The notes below the pieces were generated by a model, which saw only the letters and a program-made list of their open reading frames with translations, ran no database searches and had not been told where the DNA came from. From Bdellovibrionales bacterium (GTDB lineage Bacteria; Bdellovibrionota; Bdellovibrionia; Bdellovibrionales; UBA1609): a stretch of 33,611 nt of DNA. Positions 8,119-27,085 of the stretch are shown here, piece by piece. A program made the translations under genes and the position numbers. The number at the start of each line of letters is the position of its first letter. Within the stretch, counting starts at the first letter, position 1. The DNA is taken from the NCBI GenBank assembly GCA_020850475.1, contig JADZEO010000085.1, positions 1 to 33,611 on the forward strand. The letters run 5' to 3'.

Positions 8119-8150
8119 CTATTTTGAGTCAGGGACAGGGTGAGGGAAAG

Positions 8151-8699
8151 ATGGAACAAAATAGCCAAAAGACTTTGGTGAGTGATGTGACTGAGCTGTC
8201 GGAGATTTTGACGGGCACACTGGAACTCGATTTAAGCTCGTATGACGAGTTGAAATCCCGGCAAGTTGCGAGTGAATTTATCAATTCGCTCAACAATAAA
8301 TCATTAAAGAACGAGGATGAGGAAGCCACCAAGAATGAAGAACCGGTGGGTGAGCGTCGCCGTCACGATCGCATTGCTTCTGCTTTGCCAGCACAAGTCT
8401 ATACGATTTTGTCGAATACCCCTTTTTCTCATGAGCCCACTCCAGGATATGTGGTGAATCTCAGCTTGACCGGATTGGCCATCGTTTCCGAAAGTGACAG
8501 TATTCAACGTGGTGATGTGGTTGAAATCGAAGTCATGGTTGCCAATGGGTCTTTTAGTTTAACTACGCTGGTGGTTAAGAAGACTCCCGTATTAACCACC
8601 GCCGTCGCCCAAGTTTACTACGGCCTTCGCATCATCAAAATGAGTCCGAACGCCCTGGGCTCGATTGAAGCTTTGCTCGGTTTCGAGAGAGCTTCCTAA
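8151..8699 (+). CDS. PilZ-domain c-di-GMP receptor protein
   Basis: 182 residues, no signal peptide. The PilZ domain spans about 67-180. Both c-di-GMP-binding motifs are present: RRRHDR (69-74, RxxxR) and NLSLTG (103-108, [D/N]xSxxG). Residues 1-66 are acidic and probably unstructured, with no recognised domain. ATG 8151 follows GAGG at about 5-6 nt; an in-frame TTG at 8124 is less likely, since it would lie upstream of the expected transcription start. The gene has its own sigma-54 promoter, so it is probably expressed on a specific signal. It is an adaptor-type PilZ, with its partner not evident from the sequence. The SleB-like gene follows 72 nt later on the same strand. Confidence 0.9.
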   Translation: MEQNSQKTLVSDVTELSEILTGTLELDLSSYDELKSRQVASEFINSLNNKSLKNEDEEATKNEEPVGERRRHDRIASALPAQVYTILSNTPFSHEPTPGYVVNLSLTGLAIVSESDSIQRGDVVEIEVMVANGSFSLTTLVVKKTPVLTTAVAQVYYGLRIIKMSPNALGSIEALLGFERAS

Positions 8700-18108: not shown

Positions 18109-18137
18109 TTGGATTTAATTTCGCAAGTTCCTATAAT
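18109..18137 (+). promoter_or_regulatory. Strong sigma-70-type promoter of the PilZ-protease operon
   Basis: TTGGAT (18109-18114), 17-nt spacer, TATAAT (18132-18137, perfect -10). Transcription would start near 18144, 38 nt before ATG 18182. It appears to serve all four genes to 22565, since no gap over 9 nt follows. Confidence 0.7.
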
Positions 18138-18181
18138 TAATAGAGTCCCACAAAAACGACTTATGCGAGGTTGGCCTCATC

Positions 18182-18808
18182 ATGACTTCAGCGCGGCAGA
18201 TTTTTTGGAGTCTCTATGATCAATTGGAGGACCATCAAATCGATGGACTCCAACTCTCCGAAGTTCAGTTGATTATCAAATCGATTTCTCCCAAGAACCG
18301 CTCCCACTGGCTCGCGTGGCGCACCGGCGAGAAAACTTGGAAGGGGCTGATGGATTATCCTGAAGTCGAACAAGCCGCCCAAGATGCCACGCCACCCGCC
18401 CCTGGAGTGGCGCCGGATGAAGAGGTCACTAAAACTTCGACTTTTATTCGCATGGGCCAAGTGACCTTGCCGGAAGACCCGGCGGCCCTTGAGGGAACCC
18501 TGAACATCGAAGAGATCAACACCCTGGATCGTCGCTCCTCCACCCGCTTTCAGCGAAATCTCTCAGTGCTGGTCGTGGGGCCTCGGGGCGAGCGATTTAC
18601 CTCAACGACGGTCGATCTTTCTCTTGAAGGGGTGCAGACTGCGGATCCGATTCCCCTCTGGTCGGGAAGTGTCTTTAGCATGGAATTACGCCGAGGTGAC
18701 GAGCGCCTCGAGGTTAAATGCGAGCGCACGCCGAAAGGGGGAAATACCAAGTTCAAGATCAAGGAGAACCCCCGCGAAGATCTGCTTCGCAAGTGGCTAT
18801 TGGGATAA
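18182..18808 (+). CDS. PilZ-domain protein with GYF-like N-terminal domain
   Basis: 208 residues, no signal peptide. Residues about 8-62 (FWSLYDQLED, LSEVQLIIKSI, WLAWRTGEKTWKGL) resemble GYF_2-type domains that bind proline-rich or membrane partners. A linker rich in Pro, Ala and acidic residues follows. The PilZ domain is at about 115-200, with RRSSTR (117-122, RxxxR) and DLSLEG (145-150, DxSxxG) both intact, so c-di-GMP binding is expected. GAGG lies 10 nt before ATG and can pair with CCTC four bases on (GAGG-TTGG-CCTC), a possible translational brake. First gene of a four-gene unit with a second PilZ protein, a cNMP-binding membrane protein and a CPBP protease. Confidence 0.88.
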   Translation: MTSARQIFWSLYDQLEDHQIDGLQLSEVQLIIKSISPKNRSHWLAWRTGEKTWKGLMDYPEVEQAAQDATPPAPGVAPDEEVTKTSTFIRMGQVTLPEDPAALEGTLNIEEINTLDRRSSTRFQRNLSVLVVGPRGERFTSTTVDLSLEGVQTADPIPLWSGSVFSMELRRGDERLEVKCERTPKGGNTKFKIKENPREDLLRKWLLG

Positions 18809-18817
18809 CAGCGCCTT

Positions 18818-19600
18818 ATGGAAAGTGTTCGGTTCCATCATTGGCTCTCGCGCTTGTTCGGCTTTCATCGAACCAACAAAGATCTGCAACCGCGACTCAC
18901 CACTCAACGGCTCGCCGTCGATAACGGAATCGATCGTCGCAAAGCCGCCCGCATTCACTATCCGGAACAAGGGGCCATTGGCGATCTGCCTGAGATTCAT
19001 TACCTCGGCCACCCGATGAGAATTCAAGACATCAGTTTAGGTGGCACCTGTCTCATTGACGATTTGGATTTTCTCCAAGGCAATGCCGGCAACAATATCA
19101 CCCTGGATCTGGTCTGGAGAGACCTCACGGTCCCCCAGGCTTGCATGATCGTGGCGGTTGGTTTTAATAAGCGCCATATTCGATTTTTGGACCTCGACAC
19201 TCAATCCTACGTCCGACTCACCTTGCTGCTCAAACCCGGTTACTTGGGCATGCGGATGCGACGATTAAACCTGGAAGGTGCTCACCACATCCAAGTGGGA
19301 GCTGAGGAAATGTGGGTCGGAACTTCCGGAGAGGCCATTACGGCTTTCCCGCGCATCGACGCCAACTTTCCTTTGGGTGAAATGACTCTCTACGGCCGAA
19401 CGGTTTTGGTCTATGAAAAAGCCCCTCCTGTTTACAAACAGCAATATTCGGATGGACTTCCTGGTCAACGCATCCGCGAGGCTTTGCTTCATGATTTGTT
19501 GATCTTCGCCGTCAACATTCGCAACCCCACCGACACCCTCAAAGAGTTGATCAACTGTCTCACCGACGCCTATCTCGATTACCAAAGGAATCGCCAATGA
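18818..19600 (+). CDS. Second PilZ-domain protein of the operon
   Basis: 260 residues, no signal peptide or membrane helix. The PilZ-like domain starts early: RRKAAR (40-45, RxxxR) and DISLGG (71-76, DxSxxG), followed by the expected beta-strands to about 135. Residues about 145-260 form a second part (PGYLGMRMRRLNLEG, ITAFPRIDANFPLGEMTLYGRTVLVYE, then helices) that I do not recognise; it may hold a second, motif-less PilZ fold. It starts 9 nt after the first PilZ gene with only a weak Shine-Dalgarno, and overlaps the next gene as ATGA, so the three are translationally coupled. Two PilZ proteins in tandem may give graded or dual c-di-GMP control. Confidence 0.82.
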   Translation: MESVRFHHWLSRLFGFHRTNKDLQPRLTTQRLAVDNGIDRRKAARIHYPEQGAIGDLPEIHYLGHPMRIQDISLGGTCLIDDLDFLQGNAGNNITLDLVWRDLTVPQACMIVAVGFNKRHIRFLDLDTQSYVRLTLLLKPGYLGMRMRRLNLEGAHHIQVGAEEMWVGTSGEAITAFPRIDANFPLGEMTLYGRTVLVYEKAPPVYKQQYSDGLPGQRIREALLHDLLIFAVNIRNPTDTLKELINCLTDAYLDYQRNRQ

Positions 19601-21687
19601 AGCCGCAAGGGCAGGTTTCCTTTGATCACTTTCAACCCAAGATTAAACCCGGCCGCATTCTTCCACAGGGTTCAAAAATCATCTACGAAACCAGCGAACC
19701 CTTTAATCAGATCATTCTCCCGATTGAGTTGGCCGATCTCTTGGTCCTGTGTACGGGTCAGTTTTCGATGCGCGACATCGTCGAGAAAATCTATAAACGT
19801 CAGGGCGTAGTTCATTTCAAGTCCGTCTTTAACACCATTTACCGCTTGAAAGATCGTGGTTTCTTAGAAAATGGCTTTGAGCTCATCGATTCGCCGACTC
19901 GTACCCACATGATTGAACCTCACCAATCAATTCTGCTTCGCCCGGTTGTTGAGGTTTTCTTTGGTCAACGGATTACCAACGACAAGACTCATCCCCTGAT
20001 TTTTTATTTTCTTTCGATGTCTTTGATCGTCTTGGCGCTATTGGGTCTGCAAAGTATTCCACGCGATTTATTGACCACTAAATTTCTCCGTATCAACGGG
20101 AGCTATGCCCTCGGCATTCTTTATTTTGTTGGTCTCTCAAGCATTTTGCTTTCGCTTAAGAGCTTTATTAAAGCCATCATGCTTCTTTTTATTACCGGAC
20201 GCGTTTACAACTTCCGACTGGCCGTAAACCTCTTTGGAATTCATTTTAAAGTCGGCAATGAATCACTTTTCTTGTTGTTGAATAAACTCTACCTCACCAT
20301 CTTTCATTTGAGCCTCACCCTCTCGCATTTTGTTGGGGTCTCCGTATTGTACTGGTTGTCGCCCAATCTCCCTCTCTACGATCAGTCTTTGTATATTGCG
20401 ATGATCTTGACTCTCATCGACCTCAATCCCTTTAGCGAAAGCGAGTTTTCGTTATTTTTTAAGGCCCTGTGTGAAGACGATGGACTCAATCGTCTGACGG
20501 CCTACATCCCCAACAAGAACCTCCTGAGCGTACTGAGTCCCAGCACCAACTCCCGTTACCAAGGAATTGTCCTCGCTTATTGGCATTTGGCGGCGCTTTG
20601 GTTGCTGTCGACCGGCTGGGTGCTCACCCAACTCGCTTACCACAATCTGGCCTTGGCCCGCTATTCGCTCGAGACCGACCCTTGGCTTGAAAAAGGGGCG
20701 GTCCTGATTTTGGGTAGCCTGTTTGTCCTCTCCGTCGGCACCACCCTTAGAGGACTCGCCGACGTGGTTCTCCCCTATCTCGCTCGCCCGATCAAGAACC
20801 GCTACCACCGCCTGGTCCGGCGACTCAAGAGCTCTGGGTCCCCTGAGTTTACGACCGAATCCTTGGTTCTTACCCTAAGAGATCTCCCGCTGTTTTCCTA
20901 TTTTTCAAACCCACTGCTTGAGAAAATCATCAAGAGTTCCCAGGTTCGCTCTTTTCCCCCTGGCACTCGCGTTATCAATAAAGGTGATGTCGGCCGCCAC
21001 ATGTTTGTCCTTTTGCGAGGAGCTCTCGCGGTTCAACGACCAGGACCCAAAGGCAAAGAAACCGTCGGGGAGATCCTACCGATTTCAATTTTTGGTGAAG
21101 TCGCCGTCATCGAAGATATTCGACGAACGGCAGACGTGGTGACTCAAGAAGCCTGCGTGGTGCTGGAAATTCCAGCCCAAGTGATTCGCGAAACGTCGGC
21201 CGAATCTCAATACATTCGCGAGATCAACGACTTTAAGAACGCCATCATGGTCGCTCAGTATTTTGCCAGCGCTCCGATGTTTCGTAATCTTCCCGAGGAC
21301 ATTGTTCAGCTCTTTCTGAACTTCGGAAAAATCGAAGCCATTAAGGAGAATGAGGTCATTTTTTACCAAGGTAGCCGTGGCGATGGCTTTTATTTGCTGA
21401 TTCGCGGGGCCGTGGGCGTGAGTATTAATGGCATTCAGGTCAAAAAAATCCAACAGGGTGGTTTTTTTGGCGAGACTTCAGTCATAGCCGATATTCCGCG
21501 AACCGCAACCGTGACGGCCCTTGAGAACACTCTGTTGCTGAGAATTTCCAATGATGCTTTTTGGGAAATCATCACCCAAAACATCGAAATGGCCATGTTT
21601 ATTGAGTCCGTCAGCGAGATGCGCATCATGGAAGACATTGAACTCCTCAATCGCGGAATTCCCCAGCAAGGGCAAATGGTCGGATGA
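19597..21687 (+). CDS. Membrane protein with PqqD-like N-domain, M50-like core lacking HExxH, and two cyclic-nucleotide-binding domains
   Basis: 696 residues. Residues 35-95 (FNQIILPIELADLLVLCTG, MRDIVEKIYKRQG, VFNTIYRLKDRGFL) resemble the PqqD/winged-helix domain in front of SpoIVFB/YydH-type M50 peptidases. Membrane segments: about 134-152, 168-200, 222-255, 262-277, 325-347, 366-382. The spot where M50 relatives have HExGH reads LKSFIKAIM (187-195), but DLNPFSESE (275-283) matches their LNPxxxxDG block, so this looks like a catalytically dead M50. Two CNB domains follow (about 430-545 and 560-670). Each has a phosphate-binding cassette: FGEVAVIEDIRRTA (Glu501, Arg510) and FGETSVIADIPRTA (Glu626, Arg635), so both may bind cAMP or cGMP. 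AAGGA lies 7 nt before the overlapping ATG. The M50 relation is my inference; the CNB domains are secure. Confidence 0.85.
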   Translation: MKPQGQVSFDHFQPKIKPGRILPQGSKIIYETSEPFNQIILPIELADLLVLCTGQFSMRDIVEKIYKRQGVVHFKSVFNTIYRLKDRGFLENGFELIDSPTRTHMIEPHQSILLRPVVEVFFGQRITNDKTHPLIFYFLSMSLIVLALLGLQSIPRDLLTTKFLRINGSYALGILYFVGLSSILLSLKSFIKAIMLLFITGRVYNFRLAVNLFGIHFKVGNESLFLLLNKLYLTIFHLSLTLSHFVGVSVLYWLSPNLPLYDQSLYIAMILTLIDLNPFSESEFSLFFKALCEDDGLNRLTAYIPNKNLLSVLSPSTNSRYQGIVLAYWHLAALWLLSTGWVLTQLAYHNLALARYSLETDPWLEKGAVLILGSLFVLSVGTTLRGLADVVLPYLARPIKNRYHRLVRRLKSSGSPEFTTESLVLTLRDLPLFSYFSNPLLEKIIKSSQVRSFPPGTRVINKGDVGRHMFVLLRGALAVQRPGPKGKETVGEILPISIFGEVAVIEDIRRTADVVTQEACVVLEIPAQVIRETSAESQYIREINDFKNAIMVAQYFASAPMFRNLPEDIVQLFLNFGKIEAIKENEVIFYQGSRGDGFYLLIRGAVGVSINGIQVKKIQQGGFFGETSVIADIPRTATVTALENTLLLRISNDAFWEIITQNIEMAMFIESVSEMRIMEDIELLNRGIPQQGQMVG

Positions 21688-22565
21688 GTCTCACCTTTAA
21701 TCAACTCCTCTTACAGGATTCAACCTCATTAAAGGCACTCTTGTTTTTGTCTTTGGGGTGGATTTTTTGTTTTCTCAGTCGCAAAAATCTGTATTGGTTT
21801 TGCTGCCTGAGCATTTACTTGGCGCTGGCGGTAATGGCAAATCGCCTTTCGTGGGTGGGTCTGGTCTTTGTCACAATCACGGCCGGAGTGACTGCCGCTT
21901 ATTTTTTAAAAACAGAATGGTCGCGGCCGGCCCGAGCTGCGGTCACGCTCGGCCTCTTTGCCTGTGGCTTGGGCTTGTTCGCTCACTGGTTTCCAGGTTT
22001 TAACAACTGGCAGGTGGCCGCCGAACTCACCAAAGGAGAAGGCATCCCTTTCTCACTCTGGCTCAACTTCGATAAACCCTTTTTTGGTGTCCTGTTTTTT
22101 GCCTTGTCGCAAGAGGCAGCGCGCTCGCGAGCAAGTTGGCTCGAAATCTTCAAGGCTGTAGGCCTTGCACTGCCGGCCGCTGCGGTGGTGGTCTTTGCTC
22201 AAGCTCTGGCCTTGGGGTGGGTGCAACTTGCGATCACGCCGCTGCCGGAGTGGACGTGGATTTGGCTCTGGAAGAATCTTTTTTTGACGGTAATCGCGGA
22301 AGAGGCACTGTTTCGAGGCCTCTTACTGCGTGAACTTAAAAAGCTCTTACCGGAAAAGTGGGCCGGCATTGCGGTGGTGATTGCGGCCCTTGCTTTTGGT
22401 CTGGCCCACGGTGCCGGGGGCCTTCGTTACGTCCTCGCCGCGAGCCTGGCCGGACTATTTTACGGTTGGGCTTACCTTCGCTCCGGTGGACGCCTTGAGG
22501 CCGCAATTCTCACTCACCTCGGCCTCAACTGCGTTCACTTCTGGTTTTTTACTTATCCCCAGTAG
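21684..22565 (+). CDS. CPBP-family intramembrane glutamic protease (Abi/Rce1-like)
   Basis: 293 residues with about eight hydrophobic segments, so an inner-membrane protein. The family motifs are all present: EEALFR (Glu206, Glu207, Arg211), FGLAH (Phe238, His242) and HLGLN (His278, Asn282). In Rce1 and CPBP proteins these form the glutamate/histidine active site within the membrane. The N-terminal 150 residues are less typical and may be regulatory. It starts inside the stop of the cNMP-binding protein (ATGA), so equal production is likely. The context, a dead-M50-like cNMP sensor and two c-di-GMP receptors, suggests a regulated protease; its substrate is unknown. Confidence 0.88.
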   Translation: MSLTFNQLLLQDSTSLKALLFLSLGWIFCFLSRKNLYWFCCLSIYLALAVMANRLSWVGLVFVTITAGVTAAYFLKTEWSRPARAAVTLGLFACGLGLFAHWFPGFNNWQVAAELTKGEGIPFSLWLNFDKPFFGVLFFALSQEAARSRASWLEIFKAVGLALPAAAVVVFAQALALGWVQLAITPLPEWTWIWLWKNLFLTVIAEEALFRGLLLRELKKLLPEKWAGIAVVIAALAFGLAHGAGGLRYVLAASLAGLFYGWAYLRSGGRLEAAILTHLGLNCVHFWFFTYPQ

Positions 22566-22587: not shown

Positions 22588-22989
22588 TTACATACAACGT
22601 CTTAACACTGGCTCCTCATTCAGCTTTAAGCTGTAGCGCTCGGCACGTTCCTTGCCGATTTTGGAAGTAAAAGTCATCACACCTTTTTTGCGGTCAATAC
22701 TGGCCTTGTAGGTGGCGGCATACCTTGGCGGACGATATCCCGGAGGCGGGCGAACTCCCGTGTGGCGCACCAAAGTGCCTTTGACGTTAATCTTACTCTT
22801 GGTTTGCGGCCAATCTTTGGGCTCAACCCAGCCAGCGGCACAATCAAACTGAATCCGAGCACTTCCATCATCTAAGAGAAGCACTTCGATTCCTTCTCCT
22901 CCCCACTGTTCAACCACCGTGGGAGCAGGCTCGGCTGAACCGGCAGCTGTCACCATGACCAACGCAACTAACGCCAAGAATTTTTTCAT
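22588..22989 (-). CDS. Small secreted protein of a widespread uncharacterised family
   Basis: 133 residues. Signal peptide at 1-19 (KKFLALVALVMVTAAGSA). The mature part has EQWGGEGIEVLLLDDGSARIQFDC, then GTLVRHTGVRPPPGYRPPRYAATYKASID. I recall similar WGG...(I/L)...D.GA.I.(F/Y)DCA...G...R..G patterns in many bacterial hypothetical proteins, all beta-rich. The two mature cysteines may form a disulfide. Function unknown. It converges on the CPBP gene with 22 nt between stops and no terminator. Confidence 0.7.
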   Translation of the reverse strand: MKKFLALVALVMVTAAGSAEPAPTVVEQWGGEGIEVLLLDDGSARIQFDCAAGWVEPKDWPQTKSKINVKGTLVRHTGVRPPPGYRPPRYAATYKASIDRKKGVMTFTSKIGKERAERYSLKLNEEPVLRRCM

Positions 22990-23354: not shown

Positions 23355-24977
23355 ATGTCGGGCAAAAGAAGACTCCCAGTTTTTGTAGTTTCAATACCCA
23401 TTTTGTTGTTGGGTGTTCTGGGTGCATTTAACTCTTGCGAAGGTAAGTTTAAACCTCACGCCCAAGCCTGTTTACCGGGTGGCGGCGGATTGGTACGAAA
23501 GCTCGATTCTCCTCTGCTTGACCCCGCTTACAATTCCCCCTTTGCTCTCGGCAAAGTTCAACTCGGTGAGTACCGAATTCAAAGTGGCGGGACCCAGGTT
23601 CTAACCAAGACCAGTGGCAATCCCACTACCCTACCTGCCGGAACTCAGCTCGTCGCTTCCGTCAAAACGGCCTGTTTGGCCGACCTCCGTGACCAAAATC
23701 AGTTTCCACCCCCATTGAGCGTGGAAGTGGCGGACGGACGTGAACTCCTGCCCGAATTAGACAAACAGGCCTTTTCGTTTATTACCACGACGGATCTTAA
23801 TGTGGCTGAACTCGAAGCTGAGGCCGCCGAGGATCCCTGTTTAGTGGGCTTAAGTTACAACCGGACTTATCGGTTTCAAGCCAACCTCAACGACCCGGGT
23901 GCCTTTTATCAGCAACACTTGGCCTCACTTAATTTACCCTCGGCCTTTGATTCCTTTTACCACCCTGAGTTTGGGATGCCCCGAGTGTACAACGGCAAAG
24001 AAGCCATTATTGCGGTTGTCGATACCGGTGTTGACTACAATCACCCAGACATTTCGTCGCGAATGTGGCGCCACAAAGATGGGATCGGTATTGATGCGAC
24101 CACCATCGGCACCGGCCTCGTCGACTATAACCCGATGGACAACTCACCGATTTCGCACGGCACGCACGTCACTGGCTTGGCCGCGGCCGCCGGCGACAAT
24201 GGTGTGGGAGTCACGGGCGCAATGCCGTTTTTTGCTAAGATCATGGCCATCCGCGTGTTCCGCAAGAATGGCAGTAACTTTGAAACCACGAGTGAGATCG
24301 TCGCCAACGGTATTGCCTTTGCGCGGCTCAATGGTGCTGATGTTATTAATCTCAGCTTAGGCCGACTGACCAATGGCCCCGACAGCGACCCCTTCTACTT
24401 GGATGCGATCACCGAAGCCGTCAACGCTGAGATCGTGGTGGTGTCAGCCATTGGCAACGCCACCGGCAGCTCGCCGGCACAAGAGGTCAATGGCTCCACT
24501 TTCACTTCACTGCCCGGCATGTACGGCGAAGCCTTGGCCGGGATGATTACCATTGGCTCAGTCAACAGCAAGACCAACCAGTGGAGTACCTTTAGCCATT
24601 TCAGCACCAAGTATGTCGAGCTCGGTGCCCCGGGTGCGGAAGATGGCACGACGGGACTTTACTCCACGACCACTCCGGTCGCCTTCCATCAAAATCAACT
24701 CTATGCCCGGCTTTCCGGCACCTCCATGTCGGCACCGCTGGTGTCAGGTGCTGCGGCCCTCGTCATTGGCCTCATTCGCAACACCTACGGCAATAAGCCC
24801 AAAGCCGCCGAGGTGGAGAGGCTTCTCACCGAAGGTGCGGCCCAGGAACCTGGCCTTAACCCGTACTTTAAAGGTGGGCGGCGGTTGGATATGAATCTTT
24901 TGGTTAAGAAGGTTCACCGCGACTACCCCGAAACCATTGGGCAGTCTCAGGGCTTTTCATCACTGGGTTGCAACTAA
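23355..24977 (+). CDS. Subtilisin-family (S8) serine protease, probable lipoprotein
   Basis: 540 residues. The signal peptide ends AFNSC (Cys28), an atypical lipobox. A propeptide-like region lies at about 60-205. The peptidase domain spans about 210-520 with the triad in order: VVDTGVD (Asp223), SHGTHVTG (His268) and SGTSMSAPLVSG (Ser457); Asn368 in SAIGNAT fits the oxyanion hole. An extracytoplasmic protease, perhaps for prey-protein or envelope turnover if the host is predatory (inference). GAGG lies very close to ATG 23355. Its last 18 nt overlap the end of the convergent PTPS-like gene. Confidence 0.92.
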   Translation: MSGKRRLPVFVVSIPILLLGVLGAFNSCEGKFKPHAQACLPGGGGLVRKLDSPLLDPAYNSPFALGKVQLGEYRIQSGGTQVLTKTSGNPTTLPAGTQLVASVKTACLADLRDQNQFPPPLSVEVADGRELLPELDKQAFSFITTTDLNVAELEAEAAEDPCLVGLSYNRTYRFQANLNDPGAFYQQHLASLNLPSAFDSFYHPEFGMPRVYNGKEAIIAVVDTGVDYNHPDISSRMWRHKDGIGIDATTIGTGLVDYNPMDNSPISHGTHVTGLAAAAGDNGVGVTGAMPFFAKIMAIRVFRKNGSNFETTSEIVANGIAFARLNGADVINLSLGRLTNGPDSDPFYLDAITEAVNAEIVVVSAIGNATGSSPAQEVNGSTFTSLPGMYGEALAGMITIGSVNSKTNQWSTFSHFSTKYVELGAPGAEDGTTGLYSTTTPVAFHQNQLYARLSGTSMSAPLVSGAAALVIGLIRNTYGNKPKAAEVERLLTEGAAQEPGLNPYFKGGRRLDMNLLVKKVHRDYPETIGQSQGFSSLGCN

Positions 24978-25482: not shown

Positions 25483-26535
25483 ATGACGATGCGTGAGGAA
25501 ACCTTTGCGAGCATGCCGTTAAAGTTGCTTTTACTATTGGTTCTCAATTTGTCGCTGATTGCTTGTTCAGCTCCATCGGTGGTAACGAGCGAGGGCGGAT
25601 CTTCATCAGACTCCTTGGTGAAGGTCGCACCCAGCCCCGAGCCCCAGCCCGATTCCAACACAGCGGCTCAGAGTGCGCCTTTGGCTCCAGTGGCACCGAC
25701 GCCTCCACCAACCAACGCCCCCTCCTCGAGCGAAAGTTCCTTCACCCCGTCAGAGGCCAGTTCACTGTGTGTCGAATCCCTTAAAGCCATGGCAGGAAAG
25801 TTTGCGGAAACCGACCTCGTTGAAGCCTGTCAAGCGGCCGCGATATTTTCAGGCTGCGCCAGTGAACAGCAGAGACCCATCTTTCATTTTGATAAATCAG
25901 GCAGTGACCCCAAGGGCAAACGCATACTTGCTTTAAGCCTCATTCATGGTGACGAACTTCCGAGTGGAACAGTTGCCCGAGCCTGGATGACCCGTCTCAA
26001 TCGGCTCTCCCCTCGTAACACCTGGCGGGTCATCCCCGTCGTCAATCCGGACGGGCTCAAAAAAGGGACGCGGACAAACTCCCGAGGCGTGGACGTCAAT
26101 CGCAACTTTCCGACCAAGGCCTGGGATGATGAAGCTTTGCAAAAGTGGAAGTCGGTAACCAACGAAGACCCTCGCCGCTATCCAGGACCGCACGCCGCCA
26201 GTGAGTCTGAAACCCGTTGCATGATGAAGCACATTGACGACTTTAAGCCGGATTTTATTGTGTCCATCCATACCCCGTTAGGTGTTTTGGATTTTGACGG
26301 CCCGAAGGTGGACTTCCCTCAGTTTAAACCACTCCCCTGGATCTCGTTGGGTAATTTCCCCGGGAGTTTGGGGCGGTATATGTGGAAGGACCATAATGTG
26401 CCGGTCTTGACCATTGAGCTCAAAGGTCCTTTGGGAGTGCGACACCTGGAACAATTTGACCAGCTTCAAGATATTTCAGGAACAGTGGCCATTCAGGCCA
26501 ACGAAGCCAAATCCAAATCAACCAATAAAGATTAG
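25483..26535 (+). CDS. M14 zinc carboxypeptidase lipoprotein, MpaA-like
   Basis: 350 residues from ATG 25483, or 340 from ATG 25513, which gives a more normal signal (MPLKLLLLLV). Neither has a well-placed Shine-Dalgarno. Lipobox LIAC (Cys28), then a Ser/Pro-rich linker to about 90. Catalytic domain about 130-340: HGDE (His155, Glu158 as zinc ligands), NPDGL, RGVDVNRNFP (Arg201, Asn206, Arg207), SIHTP (His263, third ligand) and TIELKG (Glu312, general base). This small M14 type is typical of murein-peptide amidase MpaA, which releases mDAP from the tripeptide; a periplasmic version would act on wall peptides. A third wall-active enzyme in the window. Confidence 0.85.
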   Translation: MTMREETFASMPLKLLLLLVLNLSLIACSAPSVVTSEGGSSSDSLVKVAPSPEPQPDSNTAAQSAPLAPVAPTPPPTNAPSSSESSFTPSEASSLCVESLKAMAGKFAETDLVEACQAAAIFSGCASEQQRPIFHFDKSGSDPKGKRILALSLIHGDELPSGTVARAWMTRLNRLSPRNTWRVIPVVNPDGLKKGTRTNSRGVDVNRNFPTKAWDDEALQKWKSVTNEDPRRYPGPHAASESETRCMMKHIDDFKPDFIVSIHTPLGVLDFDGPKVDFPQFKPLPWISLGNFPGSLGRYMWKDHNVPVLTIELKGPLGVRHLEQFDQLQDISGTVAIQANEAKSKSTNKD

Positions 26536-26622: not shown

Positions 26623-27036
26623 TTATTTGAGATTAAGGGGGCCAAAAAAATGGGGGCAGAGCTCGCCCACGGTTTGCGCAATCTCTTTCCCCTTGAGGTT
26701 GGCTAAAATAACCGGAACCGCGGGCTCGGCAAACTCACTCACCACTTGACGGCACATTCCACATGGCGGCCAAGGCTGATCGCTATCAGTAACTACGACG
26801 AGGGCGGCAATCTTCTTTGCCCCCTCACTCACCGCTTTCCAAATCGCCACGCGCTCAGCGCAAACCGTCCCGCCGTAAGAGGCGTTTTCGACATTGCAGC
26901 CCCCATAGACTTTACCGTTATCCATGAGCACACTAGCGCCCACCTTGAAGCCACTATAGGGGCTATGAGAATGACGGCGGGCCTCAGTGGCTGAATTTAT
27001 CATTTGTGCTTTTATTTTTGGATCAAGGTTCGCCAC
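26623..27036 (-). CDS. cdd: Cytidine deaminase
   Basis: 137 residues. Zinc site TVCAERVA (Cys59, catalytic Glu61) and PPCGMC (Cys92, Cys95); HSPYSGFKVGA and NVENASYGG bind the nucleoside. Deaminates cytidine and deoxycytidine to uridine forms in pyrimidine salvage; the small size fits the tetrameric class. Start: GTG 27036 has AGGAG about 6 nt upstream; TTG 27039 directly before it is too close. Last gene of the run that includes apt, 46-49 nt after it. Confidence 0.95.
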   Translation of the reverse strand: MANLDPKIKAQMINSATEARRHSHSPYSGFKVGASVLMDNGKVYGGCNVENASYGGTVCAERVAIWKAVSEGAKKIAALVVVTDSDQPWPPCGMCRQVVSEFAEPAVPVILANLKGKEIAQTVGELCPHFFGPLNLK

Positions 27037-27085
27037 CAAATACTCCTCGAATCACGCGCCCTCACCGCCGAGAGGACTCTCGTCT

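Follow-up and report, generated by a model that had tools for sequence, protein, structure and literature searches.

A PilZ protein gene paired with a predicted M50 pseudoprotease gene in Bdellovibrionota

Which genes of a compact second-messenger operon belong together, and what might their products do? The question is raised by a 33,611-nucleotide contig of a Bdellovibrionales bacterium (JADZEO010000085.1, hereafter the window), in which four open reading frames, A to D, lie in series on the forward strand. A first-pass annotation had proposed a single membrane complex of all four products, in which cyclic nucleotides would control intramembrane proteolysis or prenyl-type processing by the last of them. 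We find instead that the conserved unit is the pair of genes B and C, not the four-gene block. The four genes are:

18182-18808, forward strand: gene A, a 208-residue PilZ protein (Pfam PilZ 1.3e-4, just above cut-off; motifs RSSTR and DLSLEG)
18818-19600, forward strand: gene B, a 260-residue PilZ protein with a C-terminal domain of unknown function (RKAAR at 18938-18952, DISLGG at 19028-19045)
19597-21687, forward strand: gene C, a 696-residue predicted pseudo-M50 protein with a PqqD-like N-terminus and tandem cyclic-nucleotide-binding (CNB) domains (Pfam, profile alignments)
21684-22565, forward strand: gene D, a 293-residue CPBP (Rce1-like) intramembrane protease (Pfam PF02517, 1.5e-19)

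These genes and their junctions, as first annotated, are real: a 9-nt gap separates A from B, and B/C and C/D overlap by 4 nt at ATGA. Hydrophobic segments are absent from A and B, and several are present in both C and D.

Conservation of the B-C pair

To place the operon among its relatives, we drew genomes from the phylum and found a homologue of C in 29 of 291, or in 52 of 369 when a profile was used. The neighbourhoods of these loci were retrieved and their neighbour genes clustered. The window's family (f1) comprises 47 genomes in this set, and its genus is represented by the window genome alone. The first-pass annotation had also suggested that the operon could connect second messengers with the change between attack and growth phases in a Bdellovibrio-like organism; the relatives that carry names are uncultured Bdellovibrionales assemblies of unknown lifestyle. 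A scan of genome contigs with the single C sequence returned no relative, and the alignment of all C N-terminal regions was too diverse for such a scan; a five-member C alignment recovered seven Bdellovibrionales loci, the other matches being CNB-only.

B lies directly upstream of C in each of the 15 family genomes where B has a clear match, and a profile search added the same adjacency at locus L060 (G043). Where a family C locus has no visible B, either a contig end cuts it or the C is a paralogue (L201). The first-pass view of a PilZ receptor beside a dead M50 protein with two CNB domains therefore survives as a conserved adjacent pair, which makes a link between cyclic di-GMP (c-di-GMP) and cyclic mononucleotides at one locus likely.

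Could the two genes simply be neighbours by synteny, with separate functions? As this explanation would predict, f1 also shows synteny in the genes that come after the pair, which encode an S8 subtilase, an M14 carboxypeptidase and a cytidine deaminase. However, in the same 15 genomes B is found only beside C, its upstream neighbours differ (DTW, RlmE and others), and the two genes overlap or abut in many of them. In a second family, f9, B still adjoins C, in divergent orientation and amid flanks that differ from those of f1. We consider synteny alone an improbable account. Three observations nevertheless weigh against a B-C unit. Part of the f1 order sits inside the longer syntenic stretch S8-M14-cytidine deaminase, and to that extent the adjacency does not count as a wholly independent line of evidence; what connects the B proteins of f1 with those of f9 is a weak profile match (E-value 0.0011) together with motifs; and C is missing from roughly half of the window's family, which makes the module dispensable.

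We then asked what B might bind. Its Pfam PilZ match is below threshold (0.0033), and support comes from motifs and fold. Across 18 B proteins, two of them from f9, just six columns are invariant: R41, R45, S73, G76, F123 and W166. The first four make up the PilZ c-di-GMP motif (RxxxR, SxxG). An AlphaFold2 model of B (predicted local distance difference test score, pLDDT, 71) matched many PilZ domains in Foldseek, including c-di-GMP-bound ones, with probability 1.00 and E-values of about 1e-4. With both the motif and the beta-barrel fold present, B is a candidate c-di-GMP receptor.

Gene A would encode an optional second PilZ receptor. Apart from the window, it adjoins B in only four of the relatives examined (L041, L042, L204 and L060). 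Its family is multi-copy: the window genome holds four matches to it, and the paralogues lie away from the locus. A GYF_2-like N-terminus was considered for A and found no Pfam support. The window encodes a further PilZ protein outside the operon (8124-8699, forward strand, 191 residues, Pfam 1.7e-9, with RRRHDR and NLSLTG).

The case of gene D is different. Its catalytic motifs are intact (EEALFR for EExxxR, FGLAH for FxxxH and HLGLN for HxxxN), and these motifs together with the 4-nt overlap with C suggest that D is probably translated from the message of C in this genome; both points favour the complex first proposed. However, the window is the only place where D stands beside C: no relative whose downstream flank is readable has this arrangement, and the five other family genomes with clear D homologues (E-values 1e-38 to 1e-32) carry them elsewhere, with none of A, B and C close by. 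Relatives show C followed by the S8 and/or the M14 and cytidine deaminase genes. In the window the corresponding genes lie at 23355-24977 (S8), 25483-26535 (M14) and 26623-27039 (cytidine deaminase), and D and a small reverse-strand gene (22588-22989) sit inside that order; D thus lies within an older gene arrangement. The four genes rarely co-occur in relatives, A being linked in a minority and D unlinked in every relative that has it, and the four-gene block, which had been staked on their co-occurrence, fails. Judging from these comparisons, D is probably a recent passenger of the operon, at most a lineage-specific add-on outside the conserved module. A complex of all four products in which cyclic nucleotides gate processing by D is very unlikely, and the output drawn from it, whether proteolysis or prenyl-type processing, finds no support.

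Upstream of A we located one further element:

18109-18137, forward strand: sigma-70-like promoter candidate, TTGGAT-17 nt-TATAAT, the single TTG-N20-TATAAT of the window (0.05 expected)

The first-pass annotation had called this a strong promoter. The candidate element is there, with a perfect -10 box, but "strong" overstates it, because the -35 box matches at 3 of 6 positions and a stricter promoter scan of the window lists no promoter at 18109-18137. A search upstream of the operon in relatives did not find TTG-N20-TATAAT.

Gene C: membrane part and CNB domains

If B-C is the conserved unit, the nature of C becomes the central issue. Its parts are as follows:

19618-19881, forward strand: PqqD/RRE-like winged N-terminal domain, about residues 8-95 (hhalign to the N-termini of active M50 proteins)
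20158-20172, forward strand: KSFIK (residues 188-192) at the HExxH position, a predicted dead zinc site (hhalign to HECAH/HEFGH)
20425-20445, forward strand: NPFSESE at the NPxxKxDG position (hhalign to NPFFKLD; comparison of 47 homologues)
20947-21195, forward strand: CNB domain 1 (Pfam PF00027), with phosphate-binding cassette FGEVAVIEDIRRTA from 21091
21259-21606, forward strand: CNB domain 2 (Pfam PF00027, with matches to the cGMP-dependent kinase PKG and the cAMP-dependent kinase subunit PKA-R), with phosphate-binding cassette FGETSVIADIPRTA from 21466; near-universal in homologues

That C resembles a dead M50 protease was at first a guess. Pfam found no M50 or PqqD match in 22 C N-terminal regions, so PqqD is a putative name for the winged domain, and an hhalign comparison with small M50 proteins of the site-2 protease (S2P) type was negative (probability 0.2). 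A DNA pattern for NPxxKxDGYY led to ten loci in the phylum that encode PqqD-M50-type proteins, all with HExxH intact. The three that we tested match the NCBIfam models daptide_HExxH (1.6e-47) and YydH/LiaK, metalloproteases of ribosomally synthesized and post-translationally modified peptides (RiPPs), below cut-offs. Against this PqqD-M50 group the C profile aligned over about 330 columns with 97.8-98.1% probability, E-values of 1e-13 to 1e-12 and scores of 105-112; ten column-shuffled profiles scored 12-27 and a reversed profile 21. Because this subfamily matched so strongly, we keep the M50 ancestry of C despite the small-S2P negative, and the guess now has the backing of a controlled comparison.

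HExxH is kept in none of 47 C homologues, which argues against an active M50 site-2 protease. Lys or Arg almost always stands in for the first His, Lys or Gln often for the last, and the second motif usually has Asp or Glu at its Asp position; a Lys-Asp/Glu pair may have replaced the zinc. On these alignments C is a predicted pseudoprotease, its first ~400 residues homologous to active PqqD-M50 RiPP-maturation proteases, and it represents a long-conserved and apparently catalytically dead M50 branch found across the Bdellovibrionota. On the other side, the structural model of C is weak (pLDDT 62), its M50 entries in Foldseek (SpoIVFB, MjS2P) being without significance and a hint only. In favour of the module, the A-B-C order is kept at L060 (2505-5016) although C, at 396 residues, lacks the whole membrane domain and retains the N-terminal and both CNB domains. 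A soluble family of about 440-470 residues, with an N-terminal domain as in C and two CNB domains, occurs at L196 (6702-8027), L197 (6097-7422), L198 (2732-4090) and L199 (3240-4652), with no B or G (see below) adjoining. Since L060 lacks the membrane domain and these soluble paralogues exist, the N-terminal domain and the CNB tandem may be the core of the protein.

Several other forms of C were seen. The closest active-type relative that we found is a 755-residue PqqD-M50-type protein with HECAH and no HlyD domain (L285, 499-2766), whose genome (G262) also has a C-G pair. At L052 (8368-10444) an in-frame stop splits C near residue 70, a pseudogene, recoding or an assembly error. A C at a contig end (L120, 1-2091, on the contig of L082) has a short-chain-dehydrogenase-like N-terminus in place of the first ~40 residues and is probably an assembly chimera. 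Divergent C proteins, M50-like with two CNB domains and with neither B nor G adjoining, occur at L061, L062, L063, L064, L217, L218, L224 and L227, and L061 and L064 share a neighbouring gene family of about 680 residues (cluster c69).

Pfam places two cNMP_binding domains on C (4.7e-38), and the best solved-structure matches are subunits of cGMP-dependent and cAMP-dependent kinases. With its ligand-binding motifs intact, the tandem is a predicted cAMP/cGMP sensor. One could suppose instead that the CNB domains are structural and bind no nucleotide, C being a scaffold that answers to B alone: CNB1 is missing at L039 and L040 and degenerate in some other homologues. However, both CNB domains of the window protein keep the cassette FGE...R[ST]A, and in homologues nearly every CNB2 retains FGE and the cassette Arg, so that we regard purely structural domains as quite unlikely. 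Most CNB2 cassettes have a Thr (PRTA), a feature that makes cGMP a candidate ligand alongside cAMP. Class-III cyclases have four matches in the window genome and GGDEF has eight, which makes both kinds of messenger plausible.

A second partner and a proposed mechanism

C has another neighbour elsewhere in the phylum. At 24 loci of six families (f1, as a paralogue, f5, f9, f12, f16 and f17) the next gene encodes a small protein, G, and the two genes often overlap by 4 nt at ATGA. G has one N-terminal hydrophobic segment and a GspG-like region (T2SSG, 4.7e-4 at best, slightly under cut-off), and the usual prepilin motif FTLIE was not seen in the G sequences. Five f9 loci combine both partners in the order B (divergent)-C-G. 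In a tree of C, all B-linked C proteins of the window's family form one clade with support 1.0, in which the truncated locus L202 also falls; the G-linked C of L201 lies outside it, and several deep nodes are weak. L201 (6532-8960) is a paralogous C-G pair in a family genome (G299) that also has the window-type C (L202); upstream of it lies an LCIB-type carbonic anhydrase gene. In the simplest history, C-G would have come first, B would have joined before f9 and f1 split, G would have been lost in f1, and D would have been added in the lineage of the window. By sequence comparison, C descends from the PqqD-M50 metalloproteases and has lost their zinc site; that loss and the gain of the two cytoplasmic CNB domains would both predate the divergence of the C-bearing Bdellovibrionota families.

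What, then, might the pair do? The reading that we prefer, to which we give about an even chance, is that C, derived from an ancestral C-G pair, is part of a membrane-anchored receptor or scaffold for two messengers that binds a client rather than cutting it. B would be a PilZ protein that became a conserved neighbour of C in f1 and f9. Cyclic AMP or GMP on the CNB tandem and c-di-GMP on B would determine the shape of a B-C complex at the membrane, and this complex would hold or release a client or a signalling partner, leaving it uncut. G, by conserved gene order the ancestral partner of C, may have been that client; in the window's family, where G was lost, another partner would take its place.

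A more specific proposal names the client as pilin-like or type II secretion system (T2SS)-like: C would hold G in the membrane until a cyclic mononucleotide releases it, and the window lineage would use another, unlinked pilin-like client, with c-di-GMP input added through B. The C-G order at 24 loci in six families, with its common ATGA overlap, and the weak T2SSG/GspG match of G fit such a role. Single-pass membrane proteins are targets of intramembrane proteases and of pseudoproteases such as iRhoms, a precedent that by analogy would suit G. Yet no G lies near C in the window, G lacks FTLIE, no link to T2SS or pilus genes was seen, and the C of one relative has no membrane domain, so that we hold this proposal to be possible and rather doubtful.

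The receptor or scaffold may also be stated in its boldest form, as a phylum-wide pseudo-site-2-protease acting as a second-messenger-gated holdase. A dead RiPP-type M50 protein would hold a pilin-like or single-pass client, cyclic mononucleotides and B-bound c-di-GMP would decide its release, and a buried Lys-Asp/Glu pair would replace the zinc. We offer this tentatively, as something that probably does not hold in full. If true, bacteria would have their own counterpart of iRhoms, governed by two messengers.

Relation to known systems

The nearest relatives of C are the PqqD-M50 RiPP-maturation metalloproteases (daptide_HExxH, NF041824; YydH/LiaK, NF058609), which likewise have a PqqD/RRE-like N-terminus followed by an M50 membrane domain. 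Unlike them, C lacks HExxH in all 47 homologues, carries CNB domains in place of HlyD, and has no RiPP genes seen adjoining it. SpoIVFB, the highest-probability match of the weak C model, has a C-terminal regulatory CBS domain. C shares with it an M50 membrane core and a cytoplasmic regulatory domain, but SpoIVFB is an active protease and its domains are CBS rather than CNB.

iRhoms offer a parallel in design: they are polytopic, derived from intramembrane proteases, have lost their catalytic residues and are conserved over long times (PMC3149277). C would share all of these features, but its ancestry is M50 rather than rhomboid and it carries cyclic-nucleotide sensors. If our assignment is right, one branch of the M50 intramembrane proteases is catalytically dead, has been conserved for a long time and carries nucleotide sensors of its own.

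A and B resemble PilZ effectors in having RxxxR and DxSxxG, and B in its PilZ fold; unlike other PilZ effectors, B has a conserved C-terminal domain in which a Trp is invariant, and its gene goes together with that of a pseudoprotease. In Bdellovibrio bacteriovorus HD100, 15 PilZ proteins have been reported (PMC3271064). This species has many PilZ proteins and few c-di-GMP enzymes, and most PilZ outputs are unknown. The locus ties one PilZ family to a widely conserved membrane pseudoprotease with predicted cyclic-mononucleotide sensors, so that an output becomes testable. A precedent for cross-talk between the two messengers exists in the same phylum: Bd1971 of B. bacteriovorus is a cAMP-sensing EAL phosphodiesterase that degrades c-di-GMP (PMC6717892). 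It too joins cAMP sensing with c-di-GMP signalling, whereas here each signal would have its own receptor, one of them on a membrane pseudoprotease.

A literature search of open-licence papers returned no description of a CNB-fused M50 pseudoprotease, whether by itself or together with a PilZ or GspG-like partner. Each domain is already known, and the combination is a variant of PilZ/CNB signalling and of pseudoproteases.

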